Positions 52,215 to 64,000 of a stretch of 64,000 nucleotides of DNA are shown piece by piece. Under the pieces are notes generated by a model, which was not told the origin of the DNA, did not search any database, and saw only the letters and a program-made list of their open reading frames with translations. Numbering within the stretch: the first letter of the stretch is position 1; each line of letters opens with the position of its first letter. The stretch comes from Citromicrobium bathyomarinum (lineage in GTDB: Bacteria; Pseudomonadota; Alphaproteobacteria; Sphingomonadales; Sphingomonadaceae): NCBI RefSeq assembly GCF_021021475.1, contig NZ_JAINWL010000002.1:124001-188000 (forward strand), in the 5' to 3' direction. A program made the position numbers and the translations under genes.

Positions 52215-52288
52215 TGCCCCGTCGTCTAATGGTAAGACTACGGACTCTGACTCCGTCAATTGAGGTTCGAATCCTCACGGGGCATCCA
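52215..52288 (+). tRNA. tRNA-Gln (anticodon CTG)
   Basis: A complete cloverleaf: acceptor TGCCCCG/CGGGGCA, a 4-bp D stem GTCT/AGAC, anticodon stem ACGGA/TCCGT with loop CTCTGAC (anticodon CTG at 52247-52249), and T arm TGAGG-TTCGAAT-CCTCA. The U1-A72 pair is typical of tRNA-Gln. The CCA end is encoded (52286-52288), and a short T-run (CTTTTTCC) follows. Confidence 0.95.
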
Positions 52289-55762: not shown

Positions 55763-57082
55763 TTGTCGGCACCTGAGACAACCCGTCCCGCACGGCTGGT
55801 GACTTTGCGCCTGCCGGTCTGGTGGACCTTCGGCGGGCTCGTCGCGGGGCTGATCGCCGGATCGCTGATCGCCGGGCGGCCGGTTGCGGACAGCATTCTG
55901 CCGGTCACCGGACCGGCGGGCGCGCTGTGGCTGCGCGCCTTGCAGATGACGATCATCCCGCTGGTCGCTGCGCTGCTGGTGCTGGGCATCACCCAGCTTG
56001 CCAGTGCCGCGCGCGCCGGGGCGACGGCGCGACGGATGCTGGTGTTCGTCGCGGCGGCGCTGGTCTTCGGCGGGGTTGCGACATTGATCGCGATGCCGTT
56101 GTTGCTCGATGCGGTGCCCGCGCCTGCCGGCGCGCAAAGCCTGCTGGCTGCGAATGTCGAGCCGCAGGAGGTGCCCGGCCTGAGCGAATTCATCCTCTCG
56201 CTGATCGCGCCCAACATTATCGCCGCCGCGGCCGAGACCGCGATGCTGCCGCTAACGATCTTCTTTGCGCTGTTCGCGGTTGCGATCACCCGCTTGGCGC
56301 CCGAGCAGTCCGCAATCCTGCGCAGCTTTTTCGAAGCGGTTGCGAATGCGATGCTGATGGTGATCGGCTGGGTGCTGTGGGTTGCGCCGGTCGGGGTCTT
56401 CGCGCTGGCGCTCGGGGTCGCGGTGCGCGCAGGGGGGGATGCGGCGTTCCTGACGCTGATCCACTATATCGCGACCGTCGCGGCGATGGGCGGGATCGTG
56501 CTGGTTGCGGCCTTCGCGGTCGGCGCGGTGCGGCACGGGCCGCTGCGTTTCGCACGCGCGCTGCTGCCCGCGCAGGCGGTCGCCATCTCCACCCAAAGCT
56601 CGCTTGCCAGCCTGCCCGCGATGCTGGCGAGCGCGCGGCGGCTCGACATCAGCGAGAACGTTGCCGATTTCGTGCTGCCGCTGTCGGTCGCGATCTTCCG
56701 CGCGACCAGCCCGGCGATGAACCTCGCCGTGGCGATCTACGTCGCGCACCTATTCGGGATCGAGCTGAGCCTCACCGCCATGCTCGCCGGGCTGGCGGTC
56801 GCCTTCGTGATCTCGATCGGGTCGGTCAGCCTGCCCGGCACGATCAGCTTCGTCGTCTCGATCGGGCCGATCGCGCTGGCGATGGGCGTCCCGGTCGAGC
56901 CGCTGGCGTTGCTGGTCGCGGTGGAGATGATCCCCGACATCATGCGCACGCTGGCCAACGTGACCGCCGACGTCGCGCTCGCCAGTGCGACCGATCGCGA
57001 GGGCGCAAGCGAATTCCCGAACGAAAGCGGCGAAAATCTTGCAACGGATGCCGCGCCCGCGCGTTCACTTACCGACAGCTGA
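55763..57082 (+). CDS. Dicarboxylate/amino acid:cation symporter
   Basis: A 439-residue DAACS-family transporter with about eight helices plus re-entrant loops. [18 protein letters not shown] is the Ser-rich first loop, [19 protein letters not shown] the substrate helix, and [17 protein letters not shown] the second hairpin. It imports C4-dicarboxylates, glutamate or related anions with sodium or protons. The start is probably TTG at 55763 because GGAAGGGGG sits 7 bases before it; a GTG at 55799 is the alternative. Divergent from glmM. Confidence 0.85.
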
Positions 57083-57114
57083 ACCACAAACCCAAAGAAT
57101 GGGAGACAACACAC

Positions 57115-57729
57115 ATGGCTTTCGAAGTTACCCCGCTGCCCTATCCGGACACCGTGCTGGCCCCGGCGGTCTCCGCCGAGACGCTCAGCTACCACCACGG
57201 CAAGCACCACAAGGCCTATATCGACAAGACCAACGCGGCGATCGAAGGCACCGATCACGCGGACAAGTCGCTTGAGGAAATCATCGCTGCCGCGCGCGGC
57301 AGCGACCAGGGCCTGTTCAACAATTCGGCGCAGAGCTGGAACCACGGGTTCTATTGGAACTCGATGGCGGGCGAAGAAACCGCCGCCTCAGACGAGCTCA
57401 AGAGCATGATCGAAAGCGCTTTCGGCTCGGTCGATGCGCTCAAGGAAAAGCTGCAGGAACGCGGTGCCGGCCACTTCGCCAGCGGCTGGGTGTGGCTCGC
57501 CGAAAAGGGCGGCAAGCTCTCGATCGAGGAAACCCATGACGGCGACACGCTGGCCGACCAGGCCGGGGTGAACCCGCTGCTCGTGATCGACCTGTGGGAG
57601 CATGCCTACTATCTCGACCACCAGAATGCGCGTCCGGCCTATCTGAAGGCGGTGACGACCGAGAAGCTGAACTGGGGCTTCGCGAGCGAGAACCTCGCGC
57701 GCGGTGAAACCTGGAAATATTCCAGCTGA
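57115..57729 (+). CDS. sodB: Superoxide dismutase (Fe type)
   Basis: Dismutates superoxide to peroxide and oxygen. The 204-residue product has metal ligands His27 (SYHHGKHHKAYID), His in NSAQSWNHGFYW, and Asp/His in DLWEHAYYLDHQN. The Gln within NSAQSWNH is the FeSOD hallmark; iron preference is an inference. GGGAG precedes the ATG. It follows the symporter by 32 bases and is closed by a strong terminator. Confidence 0.95.
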   Translation: MAFEVTPLPYPDTVLAPAVSAETLSYHHGKHHKAYIDKTNAAIEGTDHADKSLEEIIAAARGSDQGLFNNSAQSWNHGFYWNSMAGEETAASDELKSMIESAFGSVDALKEKLQERGAGHFASGWVWLAEKGGKLSIEETHDGDTLADQAGVNPLLVIDLWEHAYYLDHQNARPAYLKAVTTEKLNWGFASENLARGETWKYSS

Positions 57730-59062: not shown

Positions 59063-59683
59063 TCAGCTGCGCCCATTGGTCGGTTCGGCCAGACCATTGC
59101 CCGCTGCGACATCGTCCAGCTCTTCCAGAATCGCGCGGTGGGCGGTGTCGTCGTCGATCGAGCGGCGCGGGATATCGCCATCGGCAAGCATCGCATTGAG
59201 CGCGGCGCGGGCGCGGCCCACGCGGCTCTTGATCGTGCCGACCGCGCAGCCGCAGATATTGGCCGCTTCTTCGTAGGAGAAGCCACCCGCGCCCACCAGC
59301 AGCAGCGCCTCGCGCCGCTCGGGCGGCAGGGTCAGCAGCGCACGGTGCATGTCGGACAGGTGGATCGGCTCTTCCTGGCCCGCCGGGGCGGTCAGGATGC
59401 GTTCGGCAACGTTCTCGTCATATTCGCCGCGAAAGCGGTTGCGGCGCATGTCGGTGAGGTAGGCATTGCGCAGGATCACGAAGGTCCACGCGCGCATGCT
59501 GGTGCCCGGCTCGAACCGCTCCTGCGCGGCCCACGCCTTCATCAGCGTTTCCTGCACAAGATCGTCGGCCATGTCGGGCCTGCCGCACAGCCCGCGCGCA
59601 AAGGCGCGTAGGTGCGGAACCACGCCCGTCAGCTCACGCTTGAACTCGACCGGATCGGCGGCGGGTGCGGGGTGCCCGCTCAT
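59063..59683 (-). CDS. ecfG: General stress response sigma factor EcfG
   Basis: A 206-residue ECF15-group sigma factor. Region 2 is HLRAFARGLCGRPDMADDLVQETLMKAWAAQERFEPGTSMRAWTFVILRNAYLTDMRR (residues ~23-80) and region 4 is LLTLPPERREALLLVGAGGFSYEEAANICGCAVGTIKSRVGRARAAL (~116-162). It is held by NepR and released when phosphorylated PhyR binds NepR. The start overlaps nepR (ATGA). It should read GGAAC/CGTT promoters, several of which are visible nearby. Confidence 0.95.
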   Translation of the reverse strand: MSGHPAPAADPVEFKRELTGVVPHLRAFARGLCGRPDMADDLVQETLMKAWAAQERFEPGTSMRAWTFVILRNAYLTDMRRNRFRGEYDENVAERILTAPAGQEEPIHLSDMHRALLTLPPERREALLLVGAGGFSYEEAANICGCAVGTIKSRVGRARAALNAMLADGDIPRRSIDDDTAHRAILEELDDVAAGNGLAEPTNGRS

Positions 59684-59892
59684 GACTTGCCACCGCCCTT
59701 GTCGGCGTCTTTTTCAGGATCGTCGAACTGAGCGAGCAAATCCTTGAAGCTGTCGGGAATCGGTTCGTCGACCACGGAGTCGTAAAGGCTTCGCAGGCTG
59801 TCCGCCCAGCGAGGCTCTTCCATGCTCGCGCCATCCTTGCCAGCGCCCTTGAGGTGCTGGCTCTGCGTATCTGGAGTGTGTTTTTCGTTCAT
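59680..59892 (-). CDS. nepR: Anti-sigma factor NepR
   Basis: A 70-residue protein. The two short helices of NepR are LRSLYDSVVDEPIPDSFKDLLAQF (residues 33-56), the family core; the N-terminus is Lys/Gln-rich and disordered. It sequesters EcfG in unstressed cells. ATG at 59892 is chosen; the open frame runs further up without the conserved motif. nepR-ecfG overlap by four bases. Confidence 0.95.
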   Translation of the reverse strand: MNEKHTPDTQSQHLKGAGKDGASMEEPRWADSLRSLYDSVVDEPIPDSFKDLLAQFDDPEKDADKGGGKS

Positions 59893-59965: not shown

Positions 59966-59992
59966 GGAACGTTGCTGCCCGCGCGTGGTTCC
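59966..59992. promoter_or_regulatory. Nearly symmetric sigma-EcfG promoter between nepR and the sensor kinase
   Basis: Minus strand: GGAAC, 16-base spacer, CGTT (perfect consensus) toward nepR-ecfG, 74 bases from the nepR start. Plus strand: the same DNA reads GGAAC, 16-base spacer, GGTT toward the kinase. The element is bounded by GGAAC and GTTCC, so both -35 boxes are perfect. Confidence 0.75.
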
Positions 59993-60059
59993 CTTGCTAA
60001 ATCCAGCATTCACCAGGCCGCCGGACGCGCGGCCCGAACGATATTCAAGCGGAGCAGTA

Positions 60060-61763
60060 GTGGCGTCCGATCCGACACTTCCGACACGGCGATTCAGGCG
60101 ATGGCTGGTCCATTACCCCCGTGCCGTGCCGGTGGTAATCTTCCTGCTGATCACCGCGATCACTGCGCTGAGCGTCTATGCGATCGAACGCGGCGAGCGG
60201 CGGCGCGAGCAGGCGCAGCTCAACGAAACCGCGCAAGTGATTGCCTCTTCTCTCGACCGGCGGGTCAATACCAGCGGATCGTACCTGATCGCCGGTGCCG
60301 CGCTGATCAGCACGCTCGACCGGGTGCCCGCCGACCTGTTTCGCCGCTTCGCCACCGAATTGCGGCTGGACGCCGATTATCGCGGGGCGGAAGGGATCGG
60401 CTGGGCGCCGATCGTGCCGAGCGGGCAGGTCGGCAGCTTCGAACGCATGGTGCAGGCCGATACCGGCGAGCCGTTCCGGATCACGCCGAGGCCTGGACCG
60501 GACAGCAACTTCGCGGTGCCGGTGACCTTTCTTGAGCCGATGAGCGAACGCAATGCGCGCGCGCTTGGCTTCGACATGTATTCCGAGGCCGTCCGCCGCA
60601 GCGCGATGCAGGAGGCGATCGAGACGGGCCGCCCGACCGCGAGTGGACGGATCGTGCTGGTGCAGGAAGGCCAGGGGCAAGATTCGGGCTTCATCATCTA
60701 CATGCCCGTGTTCGAGCCGGGAACGCGCGACGAGCTGATCCGCGGCTTCGTCTACGGCCCGTTCAATTCGCAGGTGTTCCTCGATTCGGTGCTGACGCGC
60801 GAACTGGTCGGCCAGCGGGGCGTGCGGCTGTATGATGGCAAGCCGGTGGCCGCCAATCTGGTCGCGGCGCACGCGCCTGGACGGCGGACCGGGCGGGTGA
60901 CGCGGATCGAGGTCGATCTGGCCGATCGACCGATGACGGTGGAGGTGGAGTCGGCACGCGGCGATGCGCTTTCGCTGCTGTCGATGATCACCCTGCTGTT
61001 CGGGATCGCGGTCGCCAGCCTTTCGATGCTGGTTGCCCGGCTGCTGACCCAGCAGGCGCATGAGGACCAGGCGGCGCTCGATTTCTATGCCGAGCAGAAC
61101 TCGATCCGCAATTCCCTGACCCGCGAGCTTAACCACCGGGTCAAGAACACGCTCGCCAATGTGCTGTCGATTGTCGCGCTCACCCGGCGACGGGCGCATT
61201 CTCTGGAGGATTTCGCCAGCGGGCTCGACGGGCGGATTCGCGCCCTGTCCGCGACGCACGATCTGCTGACCCAGTCCGAATGGGGCACCACGCCGCTTCG
61301 CGCGGTGCTGGAGGCGGAGTTGGCGCCCTATGCCAATTCCGCCGAATCGATCCTCAAACTCGAAGGGCCCGAGGTCGATCTTGCGCCCAATGACGCTCTG
61401 TCGTTCGGCCTCGCGATTCACGAACTGGCGACCAATGCGTCCAAATATGGCTCCCTCTCGGTCGAAGGCGGGCAGCTCGATGTCACCTGGCACCAGTTGC
61501 GCGACAATCTGGTCGAGGTGCTGTGGCAGGAGCGCGGCGGGCCGACGGTACCGAGCGAGCGCCCGCGTGGGTTCGGCACCGAACTGATCGAGAAGATCGT
61601 CGCGCACGAGCTCAAGCACCCGGTCGAGCTCGACTTTGCGCCGCAGGGCGTGCGCTGCGTGCTGCGGGTGCCGGTGCGCAAGCCGACCGAGTTCCGGATG
61701 CGGGCGCGCAATCGCCCCGCCGGTGTGCAGGCGCGCGAGGCAGGGGCTGCGAGCGGGCGCTGA
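60060..61763 (+). CDS. CHASE-domain HWE-family sensor histidine kinase (PhyK-like)
   Basis: A 567-residue membrane kinase. TM1 is at residues ~23-43, a periplasmic CHASE domain spans ~60-290 and TM2 ~302-328. The dimerisation helix has phospho-accepting His359 in NHRVKNTLANVLSIVAL. The ATPase domain has the N-box ELATNASKYGSLS (~455-467) and the W-x-E motif of the HWE family (WQERGG at 489). The start is GTG with GGAG five bases upstream; an earlier in-frame GTG has none. Its place opposite nepR-ecfG suggests it phosphorylates PhyR. Confidence 0.85.
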   Translation: MASDPTLPTRRFRRWLVHYPRAVPVVIFLLITAITALSVYAIERGERRREQAQLNETAQVIASSLDRRVNTSGSYLIAGAALISTLDRVPADLFRRFATELRLDADYRGAEGIGWAPIVPSGQVGSFERMVQADTGEPFRITPRPGPDSNFAVPVTFLEPMSERNARALGFDMYSEAVRRSAMQEAIETGRPTASGRIVLVQEGQGQDSGFIIYMPVFEPGTRDELIRGFVYGPFNSQVFLDSVLTRELVGQRGVRLYDGKPVAANLVAAHAPGRRTGRVTRIEVDLADRPMTVEVESARGDALSLLSMITLLFGIAVASLSMLVARLLTQQAHEDQAALDFYAEQNSIRNSLTRELNHRVKNTLANVLSIVALTRRRAHSLEDFASGLDGRIRALSATHDLLTQSEWGTTPLRAVLEAELAPYANSAESILKLEGPEVDLAPNDALSFGLAIHELATNASKYGSLSVEGGQLDVTWHQLRDNLVEVLWQERGGPTVPSERPRGFGTELIEKIVAHELKHPVELDFAPQGVRCVLRVPVRKPTEFRMRARNRPAGVQAREAGAASGR

Positions 61764-61866: not shown

Positions 61867-62670
61867 TCAGGCGGAGGCGTTCTCGCGGCTGGCGTTGAAG
61901 AACAGCGCCTGGCTGATCGCTGCGCGCACCGTGGCTTCCTGGAACGGCTTGGTGACGAGATAGGTCGGCTCGGGCCGGTCGCCGGTCAGCAGTCGCTCGG
62001 GATAGGCGGTGATGAAGATCACCGGCACGCTGCCGATGCTCAGGATATCGTCAACCGCGTCGAGGCCCGACGAGCCGTCGGCGAGCTGGATATCGGCCAG
62101 CACGAGACCCGGGGTTCGTTCTGCGACCACCTGCTGCGCCTGCGTGCGCGTGGCGGCGGTGCCGCAGATGTCGTGGCCGAGCCCGCGGACAAGGTCTTCC
62201 AGCTGCATCGAGATCAGCGGCTCGTCTTCGATGATGAGGACACTGGTGGCCGATTCGCGGTCGATTTCGGCAATCGCATCCTGGACCATCTTTTCGACGT
62301 CCTGCGGCGCGATCTCCATGATCTCCGCCGACTGCTCGATCGTGAAATCTTCCAGCGTGGTCAGCAGCAGCGCCTGCCGGTTGAGCGGTGTAACGGTTTG
62401 CAGCCGATCGGCGCTGATCTGGTCGGGCAGGTCGGCATTGTCTGCCCCCCGGTCCGACACTTCGAGATAGGCGCTCGACCACACCTTGTTGAACGCCCGG
62501 TACAGCGGCACGCGGCCGCCTTCGAGCGAGGACTTGAGCTCGTCGTCGGCCAACGCCGCTTCGAGCGTGGCGCGCACGAAGGCGTCACCGGTCTGCTGCG
62601 ATCCCGTCAGCGCGCGCGCGTAGCGACGCAGATAGGGGAGGTTTGCAGCGACATTTTCTCCAATGGACAT
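61867..62670 (-). CDS. phyR: General stress response regulator PhyR
   Basis: A 267-residue protein with an N-terminal sigma-like domain (residues ~1-135, sigma2 and sigma4 mimicry) and a C-terminal receiver domain. The receiver has acidic Glu148/Asp149, phospho-acceptor Asp193 (LADIQL) and Lys241 (VTKPF). When phosphorylated, the sigma-like domain opens and binds NepR, freeing EcfG. Start ATG at 62670. A perfect EcfG promoter lies upstream, giving positive feedback. Confidence 0.96.
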   Translation of the reverse strand: MSIGENVAANLPYLRRYARALTGSQQTGDAFVRATLEAALADDELKSSLEGGRVPLYRAFNKVWSSAYLEVSDRGADNADLPDQISADRLQTVTPLNRQALLLTTLEDFTIEQSAEIMEIAPQDVEKMVQDAIAEIDRESATSVLIIEDEPLISMQLEDLVRGLGHDICGTAATRTQAQQVVAERTPGLVLADIQLADGSSGLDAVDDILSIGSVPVIFITAYPERLLTGDRPEPTYLVTKPFQEATVRAAISQALFFNASRENASA

Positions 62671-62700: not shown

Positions 62701-62725
62701 AACGTCCGGCGTCGAGCCAGGTTCC
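62701..62725 (-). promoter_or_regulatory. Sigma-EcfG promoter of phyR
   Basis: Minus strand GGAAC (62725-62721), 16-base spacer, CGTT (62704-62701). The -10 lies about 30 bases upstream of the start codon, so the leader would be short. Confidence 0.85.
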
Positions 62726-62812
62726 AAGCCTGCGCAAGTTCGCTTGTAAAGCGCCCGCAACGTGGTTTCGATGACGTGATAGTGAAAGGGGTGAAAAAAA
62801 TTTGCACGGCGA

Positions 62813-62837
62813 GGAACCGGCTTCGGGCCGGGGCATT
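62813..62837 (+). promoter_or_regulatory. Near-consensus sigma-EcfG promoter of the candidate sRNA
   Basis: Plus strand GGAAC (62813-62817), 16-base spacer, CATT (62834-62837), one base off CGTT. It faces a strong terminator 60 bases downstream. Confidence 0.55.
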
Positions 62838-62843
62838 CTCCCT

Positions 62844-62938
62844 ATGTCACCGCCGAGACCCCCCTCCCGTCCAAGCGGCCGGTGATACGATCCCGAAGGC
62901 CTTCGTTCCGCACCATGCGGATCGAAGGCCTTTTTTTG
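62844..62938 (+). ncRNA. Candidate general-stress-response small RNA
   Basis: About 95 nt between the near-consensus EcfG promoter and a strong Rho-independent terminator. The 5' half folds as CACCG/CGGTG plus a second CCG/CGG block (one bulge; 62848-62855 with 62876-62884). Its 20-nt loop (62856-62875) is C-rich (ACCCCCCTCCCGTCC), able to pair with G-rich ribosome binding sites. No supported ORF lies on this strand between 62671 and 63000. A 13-codon ATG reading from 62844 has no ribosome binding site. Both neighbouring genes run the other way. The 5' end is inferred from the promoter position. Confidence 0.6.
62896..62938 (+). terminator. Strong Rho-independent terminator, plus strand
   Basis: AAGGCCTTCG/CGAAGGCCTT with an inner TCCGCA/TGCGGA stem and then seven T on the plus strand. 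On the minus strand the stem is followed by CGGGATCG without a T-tract, so it does not serve the FAT GUY gene. Confidence 0.9.
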
Positions 62939-63000
62939 TGCCTGAGGGTCGTGTGCGAAAGGCGCAGTCCGGGCGTGCCGGGCGGCGCCCGGAAGAACGC

Positions 63001-63426
63001 TCAGTCGCGCTTGAGGCGGGAGAGGAAAGAGGGGCGCTCGGGCTTGCCGACATGCGCCAGCAGGTCGTCGAAATCGTACGGCTTGCCCAGCACCGGGCCC
63101 AGATCCGCGACGTGGGCGGGTATTTCGTCGGGCGATCCGGTTGCGAAGATGACCTTGGGTGCATTGGGGCCGAGCGCCCGCAGCACTTCCGCAATCGCCC
63201 AGCCATCGCCGCGGTCGGCCAGATGGACGTCGAGGATTACGGTTTCCACGTCGCCATCGCGCAGTCGCTCGATCGCCTGCGATGTCGTTGCGGCGATCGC
63301 GATGTCGCGCGCGCCCGCCTCGATCAGCGCGTCTTCCACCGCGAGGGCAAGGACGGCATCGTCTTCGACAATCAGGACAGGCCCGTAATTGCGGGTCTTT
63401 CGGGGGCTGGCGCCGTCCGGCGGCAT
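63001..63426 (-). CDS. FAT GUY-type single-domain response regulator (SdrG-like)
   Basis: A 141-residue stand-alone receiver domain with no output domain. Acidic residues EDD at 21-23, phospho-acceptor Asp66 in VILDVHLAD, FATG at 94-97, and KPY at 115-117. The FATG...KPY pattern defines the FAT GUY family; such proteins, for example SdrG in Sphingomonas, take part in the general stress response as phosphorelay partners of HWE/HRXXN kinases. Its own candidate EcfG promoter lies upstream. Confidence 0.88.
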   Translation of the reverse strand: MPPDGASPRKTRNYGPVLIVEDDAVLALAVEDALIEAGARDIAIAATTSQAIERLRDGDVETVILDVHLADRGDGWAIAEVLRALGPNAPKVIFATGSPDEIPAHVADLGPVLGKPYDFDDLLAHVGKPERPSFLSRLKRD

Positions 63427-63477: not shown

Positions 63478-63503
63478 AACGCCGCGGGTGTCCCTCGCGT
63501 TCC
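63478..63503 (-). promoter_or_regulatory. Sigma-EcfG promoter of the FAT GUY regulator gene
   Basis: Minus strand GGAAC (63503-63499), 17-base spacer, CGTT (63481-63478), about 52 bases before the start codon. Confidence 0.7.
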
Positions 63504-63520: not shown

Positions 63521-64000
63521 TTACAGATCCTTCTCGTAGATCACGTATTCGCGGTTGATGCTGCTGTCGATCGCGTCTGCGATGGCGACCATTCCCTGGT
63601 TGTCTTCGAGGATCCAGCCGACCTCGCCACGATCCGAATGAAACACGCTGCTCGCCGACTGCCTGATCTGGCTGATCATCATGAAAGCGAGCTGGCTGGC
63701 GAGGCGGGAGTTATGCAGCCGCTTGCGCACACCCATCAGCGGCACCCGCATCCCTGCGTGCATCGGTTTGCGCAGCCAGCGCAGGGTCGCAAGCCAGCCG
63801 AACGGGAACAGCTTGCCGCGCGTGCGCGCGAACAGATCGTTGACGTTGGGCAGCGTCATCATGAAGGCGACCGGTTCGCCGTCCAACTCAGCGATGCGGT
63901 TGATTTCCGGGTGGATCAGCGGGCGCAGCTTCTTGCCGGTATAGGCGACCTCCGCCTCGGTCAGCGGGACGAAGCCCCAGTTCTGCGACCATGCATCGTT
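63521..64000 (-). CDS. GNAT-like conserved hypothetical protein, 5' truncated
   Basis: The C-terminal ~159 residues of a longer protein whose start lies beyond the right edge. The visible part runs WSQNWGFVPLTEAEVAYTGKKLRPLIHPEINRIAELDGEPVAFMMTLPNVNDLF, then GKLFPFG and VGWILEDNQGMVAIADAIDS (residue positions are relative to the edge). It resembles the N-acetyltransferase-like YghO family of unknown function. The frame is open to base 64000. It ends 18 bases upstream of the FAT GUY promoter. Confidence 0.75.
   Translation of the reverse strand, partial: NDAWSQNWGFVPLTEAEVAYTGKKLRPLIHPEINRIAELDGEPVAFMMTLPNVNDLFARTRGKLFPFGWLATLRWLRKPMHAGMRVPLMGVRKRLHNSRLASQLAFMMISQIRQSASSVFHSDRGEVGWILEDNQGMVAIADAIDSSINREYVIYEKDL

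Follow-up and report, generated by a model that had tools for sequence, protein, structure and literature searches.

The general stress response locus

The window, by which we mean the whole 64 000-nucleotide stretch of Citromicrobium bathyomarinum DNA that was analysed, contains a general stress response (GSR) locus with ecfG, nepR, a CHASE-HWE kinase gene, phyR and a gene for a receiver-only regulator. The features of this locus are as follows.

59063–59683, minus strand: ecfG sigma factor gene (profile and domain matches)
59680–59886, minus strand, start uncertain: nepR anti-sigma factor gene, adjoining ecfG (PF18557 NepR)
59985–61763, plus strand: CHASE-HWE histidine kinase gene (PF03924, PF07536)
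61867–62670, minus strand: phyR, directed away from the RNA described below (NF006623, 354.8 bits; PhyR_sigma2)
62701–62725, minus strand: EcfG promoter of phyR, CGTT form (GGAAC-N16/17-CRTT pattern)
63001–63426, minus strand: receiver-only response regulator gene, FATG motif (PF00072)
63478–63503, minus strand: EcfG-type promoter GGAAC-N17-CGTT, 5' of the receiver gene (pattern)

With an EcfG-type promoter of its own, the receiver-only regulator may belong to the feedback of the regulon. The window contains four GGAAC-N16/17-CRTT sites compared with 1.44 expected; since four or more were reached in six of 100 shuffles, the count alone is weak evidence. Every one of the four falls within the GSR locus, where they neighbour nepR, phyR, the gene of the small response regulator, and the RNA. 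The last of them (62813–62837) is directed away from phyR into a gap with no visible plus-strand gene, and both genes flanking this gap, those for PhyR and the receiver-only protein, are on the minus strand, as the first-pass annotation of this DNA had stated. We also note that, elsewhere in the window, the superoxide dismutase match of the plus-strand frame 55822–57726 is confined to residues 432–626, which indicates a gene shorter than the open frame.

The predicted small RNA gene

The gap between phyR and the receiver gene contains the elements of a small RNA gene. R2 denotes a covariance model built from 65 of the loci compared below.

62794–62803, plus strand: A/T tract, UP-element-like, just 5' of the −35 element (column conservation, 67 loci)
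62813–62837, plus strand: EcfG-type promoter GGAAC-N16-CATT (pattern; 67-locus comparison)
62845–62937, plus strand: predicted small RNA of about 92 nt (R2 match 62845–62936, 96.6 bits, E = 6.1e-21, the window's own sequence being among the 65 training sequences)
62845–62887, plus strand: 5' stem-loop of 7+4 pairs (folding; in 65 loci 98.2% of cells pair, for the most part because they do not vary)
62856–62875, plus strand: C-rich loop AGACCCCCCUCCCGUCCAAG, 20 nt, proposed pairing site (loop core common to 67 loci)
62888–62895, plus strand: single-stranded linker CGAUCCCG, largely conserved (alignment)
62896–62937, plus strand: intrinsic terminator, seven T at 62931–62937 (folding; covariation, 65 loci)

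The promoter consists of GGAAC (62813–62817), a spacer of 16 nt and CATT (62834–62837), and we infer that the RNA starts 8–9 nt past the CATT. In the 5' stem, residues 62845–62855 pair with 62876–62887, the seven and four pairs flanking one bulged base; the stem is thus longer than the 8 bp given by the first-pass annotation, which had correctly recognized the near-consensus EcfG promoter, the 20-nt C-rich loop and the Rho-independent terminator with its run of seven T. The predicted fold of 62844–62945 has an energy of −45.1 kcal/mol (z = −6.1) that was equalled by none of 200 shuffles. The 5' part and linker folded alone are weaker, with a z of −2.2 that six of 200 shuffles equalled. A simple pattern scan of the stretch listed neither a sigma-70 promoter nor a terminator, the latter presumably because of the internal mismatch in its stem. 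In the window phyR faces away, so the terminator cannot serve it there.

Conservation in related loci

The detailed comparison covers 67 loci from 39 genera, seven of the loci being from the genus of the window. Across this set the 14-base loop core CCCCCTCCCGTCCA is identical in 67 of 67 loci, although these were chosen from blastn matches to the window and the selection therefore favours a conserved loop. Loop bases beyond the core differ in some loci, and the length of the C-run is 5, 6, 7 or 8 in 3, 38, 25 and 1 loci, respectively. The promoter is recovered by the strict pattern in 63 of the 67 loci. It could be parsed in 66, with a spacer of 16 nt in 65 of these, CATT in 60 and a CATT-to-UCACC distance of 9 nt in 65. 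Upstream of the RNA, the columns that rise above background are those of the A/T tract (columns −54 to −45, 0.27–1.07 bits over 67 loci, most columns farther upstream being below 0.2), GGAAC and the next C, the G before the −10 element, and CATT. Promoter, transcript and terminator thus stand as conserved islands amid variable flanks. A CGTT-ending site directed at phyR is present within 1.15 kb in 60 of the 67 loci, three of which also have a CATT site.

The terminator is supported by covariation, with both sides changed at 12 of the 13 pairs (65 loci). Cells altered on both sides number 97 compared with 20.4 in shuffles, a value reached by none of 500, in an alignment that was fitted to the structure and so favours the count; when the partners were slid by 1–3 columns, pairing fell from 98% to 26–52%. 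Covariation in the 5' stem is found at one of 11 pairs and most of the stem is invariant, such that the case for this predicted stem rests on invariance and folding rather than on covariation. Stem, loop and terminator, on whose conservation the first-pass annotation had made its proposal depend, are kept far beyond chance. We note the juxtaposition, in the 67 loci, of a fixed loop core and a drifting terminator.

As in the window, phyR lies to the left of the RNA and is transcribed away from it in all 67 loci. The distance from the phyR start to the loop core is about 0.15–0.31 kb in 50 loci and 1.0–1.5 kb in the other 17 (L027–L031, L033, L035, L038, L041, L042, L065, L067, L068, L074, L076, L085 and L091). 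To the right, the receiver gene is present in 54 of the 67 loci and was not found there in 13, and the frame that occupies 63521–64000 in the window is present in 65. Each of the 17 phyR-distant loci has an ATG frame of at least 150 codons on the strand of the RNA, ending about 100–150 bases before the core. The one such frame that was scanned contains cNMP-binding and Crp-type helix–turn–helix domains (Crp/Fnr-like). In these 17 loci the terminator could also serve the upstream same-strand gene. The comparison across relatives supports the more general claim, namely that the GSR locus carries a small RNA gene driven by an EcfG-type promoter of its own, and shows that the C-rich loop is kept.

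Distribution among genomes

The RNA was found by blastn in all ten genomes of the genus and, at E ≤ 0.01, in 178 of the 397 GTDB family genomes searched; the weakest of these matches (E between about 5e-4 and 0.01) are likely to be fortuitous. A first covariance model, R1, made from 17 sequences, matched all 65 loci that it was given, those 17 included. The covariance search of relatives that the first-pass annotation had suggested was carried out with R2 and gave matches in 158 of the 397 family genomes at E ≤ 1e-3 and in 154 at E ≤ 1e-4, the latter spanning 40 genera as counted from the table. The four matches with E values of 3e-4 to 7e-4 may be bare terminators. In one family genome the R2 match (E = 4.0e-17) is accompanied by the promoter and the loop core. 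Ten of the 385 genomes in a class sample gave R2 matches. Four of these genomes belong to the family; the other six do not, and their seven matches, all inspected, are terminators without the loop.

A pattern scan of named genomes returned at least 118 stretches. R2 accepts 71 among the 80 matches listed, and because the scan pattern includes the loop core this acceptance tests the rest of the RNA and not the loop. The accepted titles among the matches listed are mostly those of erythrobacter genera or Novosphingobium, with seven titled as unclassified Sphingomonadales, Sphingomonadaceae, Alphaproteobacteria or Proteobacteria. The nine rejected among the 80 listed are every one titled as another group: Streptomyces (two), Deltaproteobacteria (two), Actinomycetes, Atopobiaceae, Myxococcota, Blastococcus and Bradyrhizobium. 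The plasmid records searched gave no match to the RNA.

Sister genera provided 47 genomes without a strong R2 match (one, G051, has a weak match). Of these, 41 have phyR, and a scan of 30 of the phyR loci for simple patterns showed promoter, C-rich run and terminator together in none, and an outward promoter-like site in three. The identity of PhyR to that of the window is 47–59% in the sister genera that lack the RNA compared with 68–100% in the 67 loci. Given these identities and the lack of a comparable unit in the 30 sister-genus regions, the RNA probably marks one branch, which contains the erythrobacters and Novosphingobium.

Comparison with known RNAs

At the gathering score, Rfam release 15 contains no match for the RNA, and its only match in the whole window is a tRNA (52215–52285). 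In relaxed mode the highest-scoring model for this stretch is RF01521 (CC1840, a Caulobacter small RNA), which aligns end to end with 23.4 bits. Membership of this family was rejected, given a cut-off of 50 bits, an E value of 0.22 and a score of 24.9 bits at another place in the same genome; RF01521, used as a marker for Caulobacter genomes, matched none of the 385 in the class sample. No description of the RNA was found in the open-licence literature searched.

The closest known RNAs by design are, by analogy, GsrN and ReC64. GsrN (CCNA_R0081) of Caulobacter crescentus is modelled to find its mRNAs through a 5' loop with six tandem C; it and other RNAs that carry C-rich motifs reportedly contact G-rich sites on RNA, and predicted GsrN homologues in the Caulobacteraceae are described as typically close to core GSR genes (PMC5869019). 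GsrN (about 100 nt) shares with our RNA an EcfG-type (sigma-T) promoter, a C-rich 5' loop and an intrinsic terminator. GsrN target sites quoted there, such as UCGGGGGGU, imply ACCCCCC in the GsrN loop, and ACCCCCC is also present in the loop described here. Two features by which Tien et al. (2018) recognize GsrN-like genes are found as well, namely a near-consensus EcfG promoter, here with CATT instead of CGTT, and nearness to phyR-ecfG, with phyR within about 0.3 kb in 50 of the 67 loci. GsrN is cleaved to a stable 5' form of 51–54 nt, and the largely conserved linker of our RNA falls at about nucleotides 44–51. There are also differences. GsrN pairs with and activates katG mRNA, whereas our computation found no such pairing. 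R2 detected no relationship, giving outside the family only terminator-like matches in the 385-genome class sample, in a search whose stricter filters lose weak matches, GsrN itself being compared by description. The first-pass annotation rightly abstained from a claim of homology to GsrN; of its proposal of a functional analogue, what stands is a resemblance.

ReC64 of Rhizobium etli is described as an EcfG-dependent RNA of 88 nt from the ecfG1-phyR region with an EcfG1 motif, GGAAC-N16-CGTT, upstream, which is also the EcfG consensus given there (PMC3892343). In contrast to our RNA it lies downstream of tcrY in another gene order, and it is reported there to be conserved in other Rhizobium; the likeness is again one of descriptions. 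Rhizobiales RNAs with CCUCCUCCC hairpin loops are likewise C-rich and are described as anti-Shine–Dalgarno (PMC3927594), but these have three or four CCUCCUCCC hairpins, whereas ours has one loop, CCCCCCUCCCGUCC.

We take the RNA as a new family within a known kind. It is conceivable, if rather unlikely, that all three are descendants of one ancestral alphaproteobacterial stress small RNA by phyR, in which case sequence would have drifted past recognition between orders while promoter, size and the C-run in the 5' loop stayed, and the erythrobacter/Novosphingobium branch would have frozen the loop.

Search for targets

The first-pass annotation had suggested katG as a possible target, a proposal that the computation does not support. 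At −14.0 kcal/mol, pairing of the loop with the katG leader ranks 30th among 55 window genes, and nine katG leaders from the genus pair with the loop no more strongly than with shuffled versions of it (z from −0.38 to +0.79, lower being stronger). A 7-base complementary stretch is present in two of these nine leaders, at differing positions, and one of the ten genus genomes keeps the RNA without a katG match at E ≤ 1e-50. We therefore rejected katG on the average pairing of its leader and the lack of any leader better than shuffles.

Other candidates fared similarly. The phyR leader of the window contains GACGGGA, which gives 7 bp with the loop and is present in some relatives only; autoregulation through phyR was rejected at a mean z of −0.07 against shuffled loops over 67 phyR leaders. 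The 49 receiver-gene leaders that were scored, and the 32 from the gene beyond, pair worse than shuffles. One long conserved target was rejected, as the ten genus genomes contain 13 near-complements of the loop, the RNA gene itself excluded, compared with 71 for a reversed control. The sole recurrent near-complement (three genomes) we read as antisense to the start of another frame. That near-complements of the loop are rarer than those of the reversed-control pattern may reflect either avoidance or composition.

A wider sample comprised 400 kb and the window, with 345 crude gene calls. Compared at these 345 gene starts, 39 of 40 shuffled loops pair more strongly than the loop itself. Its pairing energy is −12.78 against start regions and −13.08 against coding interiors, such that starts are slightly less well paired, by a deficit smaller than that in 38 of the 40 shuffles; this is at most a faint hint that the loop prefers start regions. 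Among the top pairings of the sample, an outer-membrane efflux gene with a 9-base upstream site was rejected, since the gene was matched in only four of the ten genus genomes; a family scan covered four of the others. No conserved target was thus found among phyR, the neighbouring genes, katG, long complements and the one efflux gene.

Interpretation

In our view, the data described above are probably best explained by a gene in the EcfG general stress regulon that encodes a small RNA acting in trans. The comparison shows conservation of the predicted gene together with its boundaries, promoter, loop core, terminator and locus, and the identity of the loop core across 39 genera makes it very probable that the predicted RNA is a real stress regulator. 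We infer that it is transcribed in dependence on EcfG and pairs in trans with its targets, as follows. Under stress PhyR would remove NepR and so free EcfG, and transcription by EcfG from the GGAAC-N16-CATT promoter would yield a transcript of about 92 nt that stops at the terminator of the gene itself. Held out by the 5' stem, the C-rich loop would form short duplexes of about 7–9 bp with several mRNAs at G-rich sites, altering their translation or stability. As the −10 element is CATT and not the published CGTT, another sigma factor is possible.

Several alternatives were considered. The RNA might act in cis, by antisense pairing or interference, on minus-strand read-through from the receiver gene to phyR, a transcript that would contain its entire complement, and thereby on phyR. 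Both genes are on the minus strand across the stretch and phyR is on this side in all 67 loci; however, 17 of them have phyR at a distance of 1.0–1.5 kb, and in 13 no receiver gene was detected to the right. Moreover, pairing in cis is perfect for any sequence, so this explanation leaves the fixed loop core beside a drifting terminator unaccounted for, and we consider it unlikely. We know of no protein that binds the loop-core motif. An RNA that works through a protein bound to the loop core, as sponge or scaffold and not by mRNA pairing, would fit the invariant core, the nearly invariant linker and the failure to find a conserved complementary target, but is quite unlikely given that GsrN and other C-rich RNAs are reported to contact G-rich RNA sites (PMC5869019).

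A GsrN-like regulator that activates katG translation by pairing of its loop with the katG leader, in the manner known from Caulobacter, has in its favour the promoter class, the C-rich loop and the type of locus, as well as a katG gene 49 kb away in the window. With average pairing, nine leaders no better than shuffles and a genus genome without a katG match, we find this reading very doubtful. It is scarcely credible that the conserved stretch is the 3' region of an upstream Crp/Fnr-like gene whose mRNA the terminator ends: all 17 phyR-distant loci do have a same-strand frame of at least 150 codons before the core, but the other 50 of the 67 loci, including the window, have phyR there, facing away, and yet keep the RNA. 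A small protein gene can be practically dismissed, as the ATG at 62844 does open 13 codons through the loop in the window (ATG TCA CCG ... TGA), but the C-run of 5–8 means that the frame is not kept and the first base of the ATG is an A in only 35 of the 67 loci.

The preferred reading, a trans-acting RNA of the EcfG regulon, bears on RNA-level control in the general stress response, which to our knowledge is best worked out in Caulobacter. A figure legend of Tien et al. (2018; PMC5869019) shows Erythrobacter litoralis as an outgroup without an apparent gsrN-like gene, a gap that a stress-locus RNA in about 40 genera with a fixed 14-base loop core would fill. The RNA is an easily tested candidate regulator, and its fixed loop core as opposed to its drifting terminator poses a testable question.
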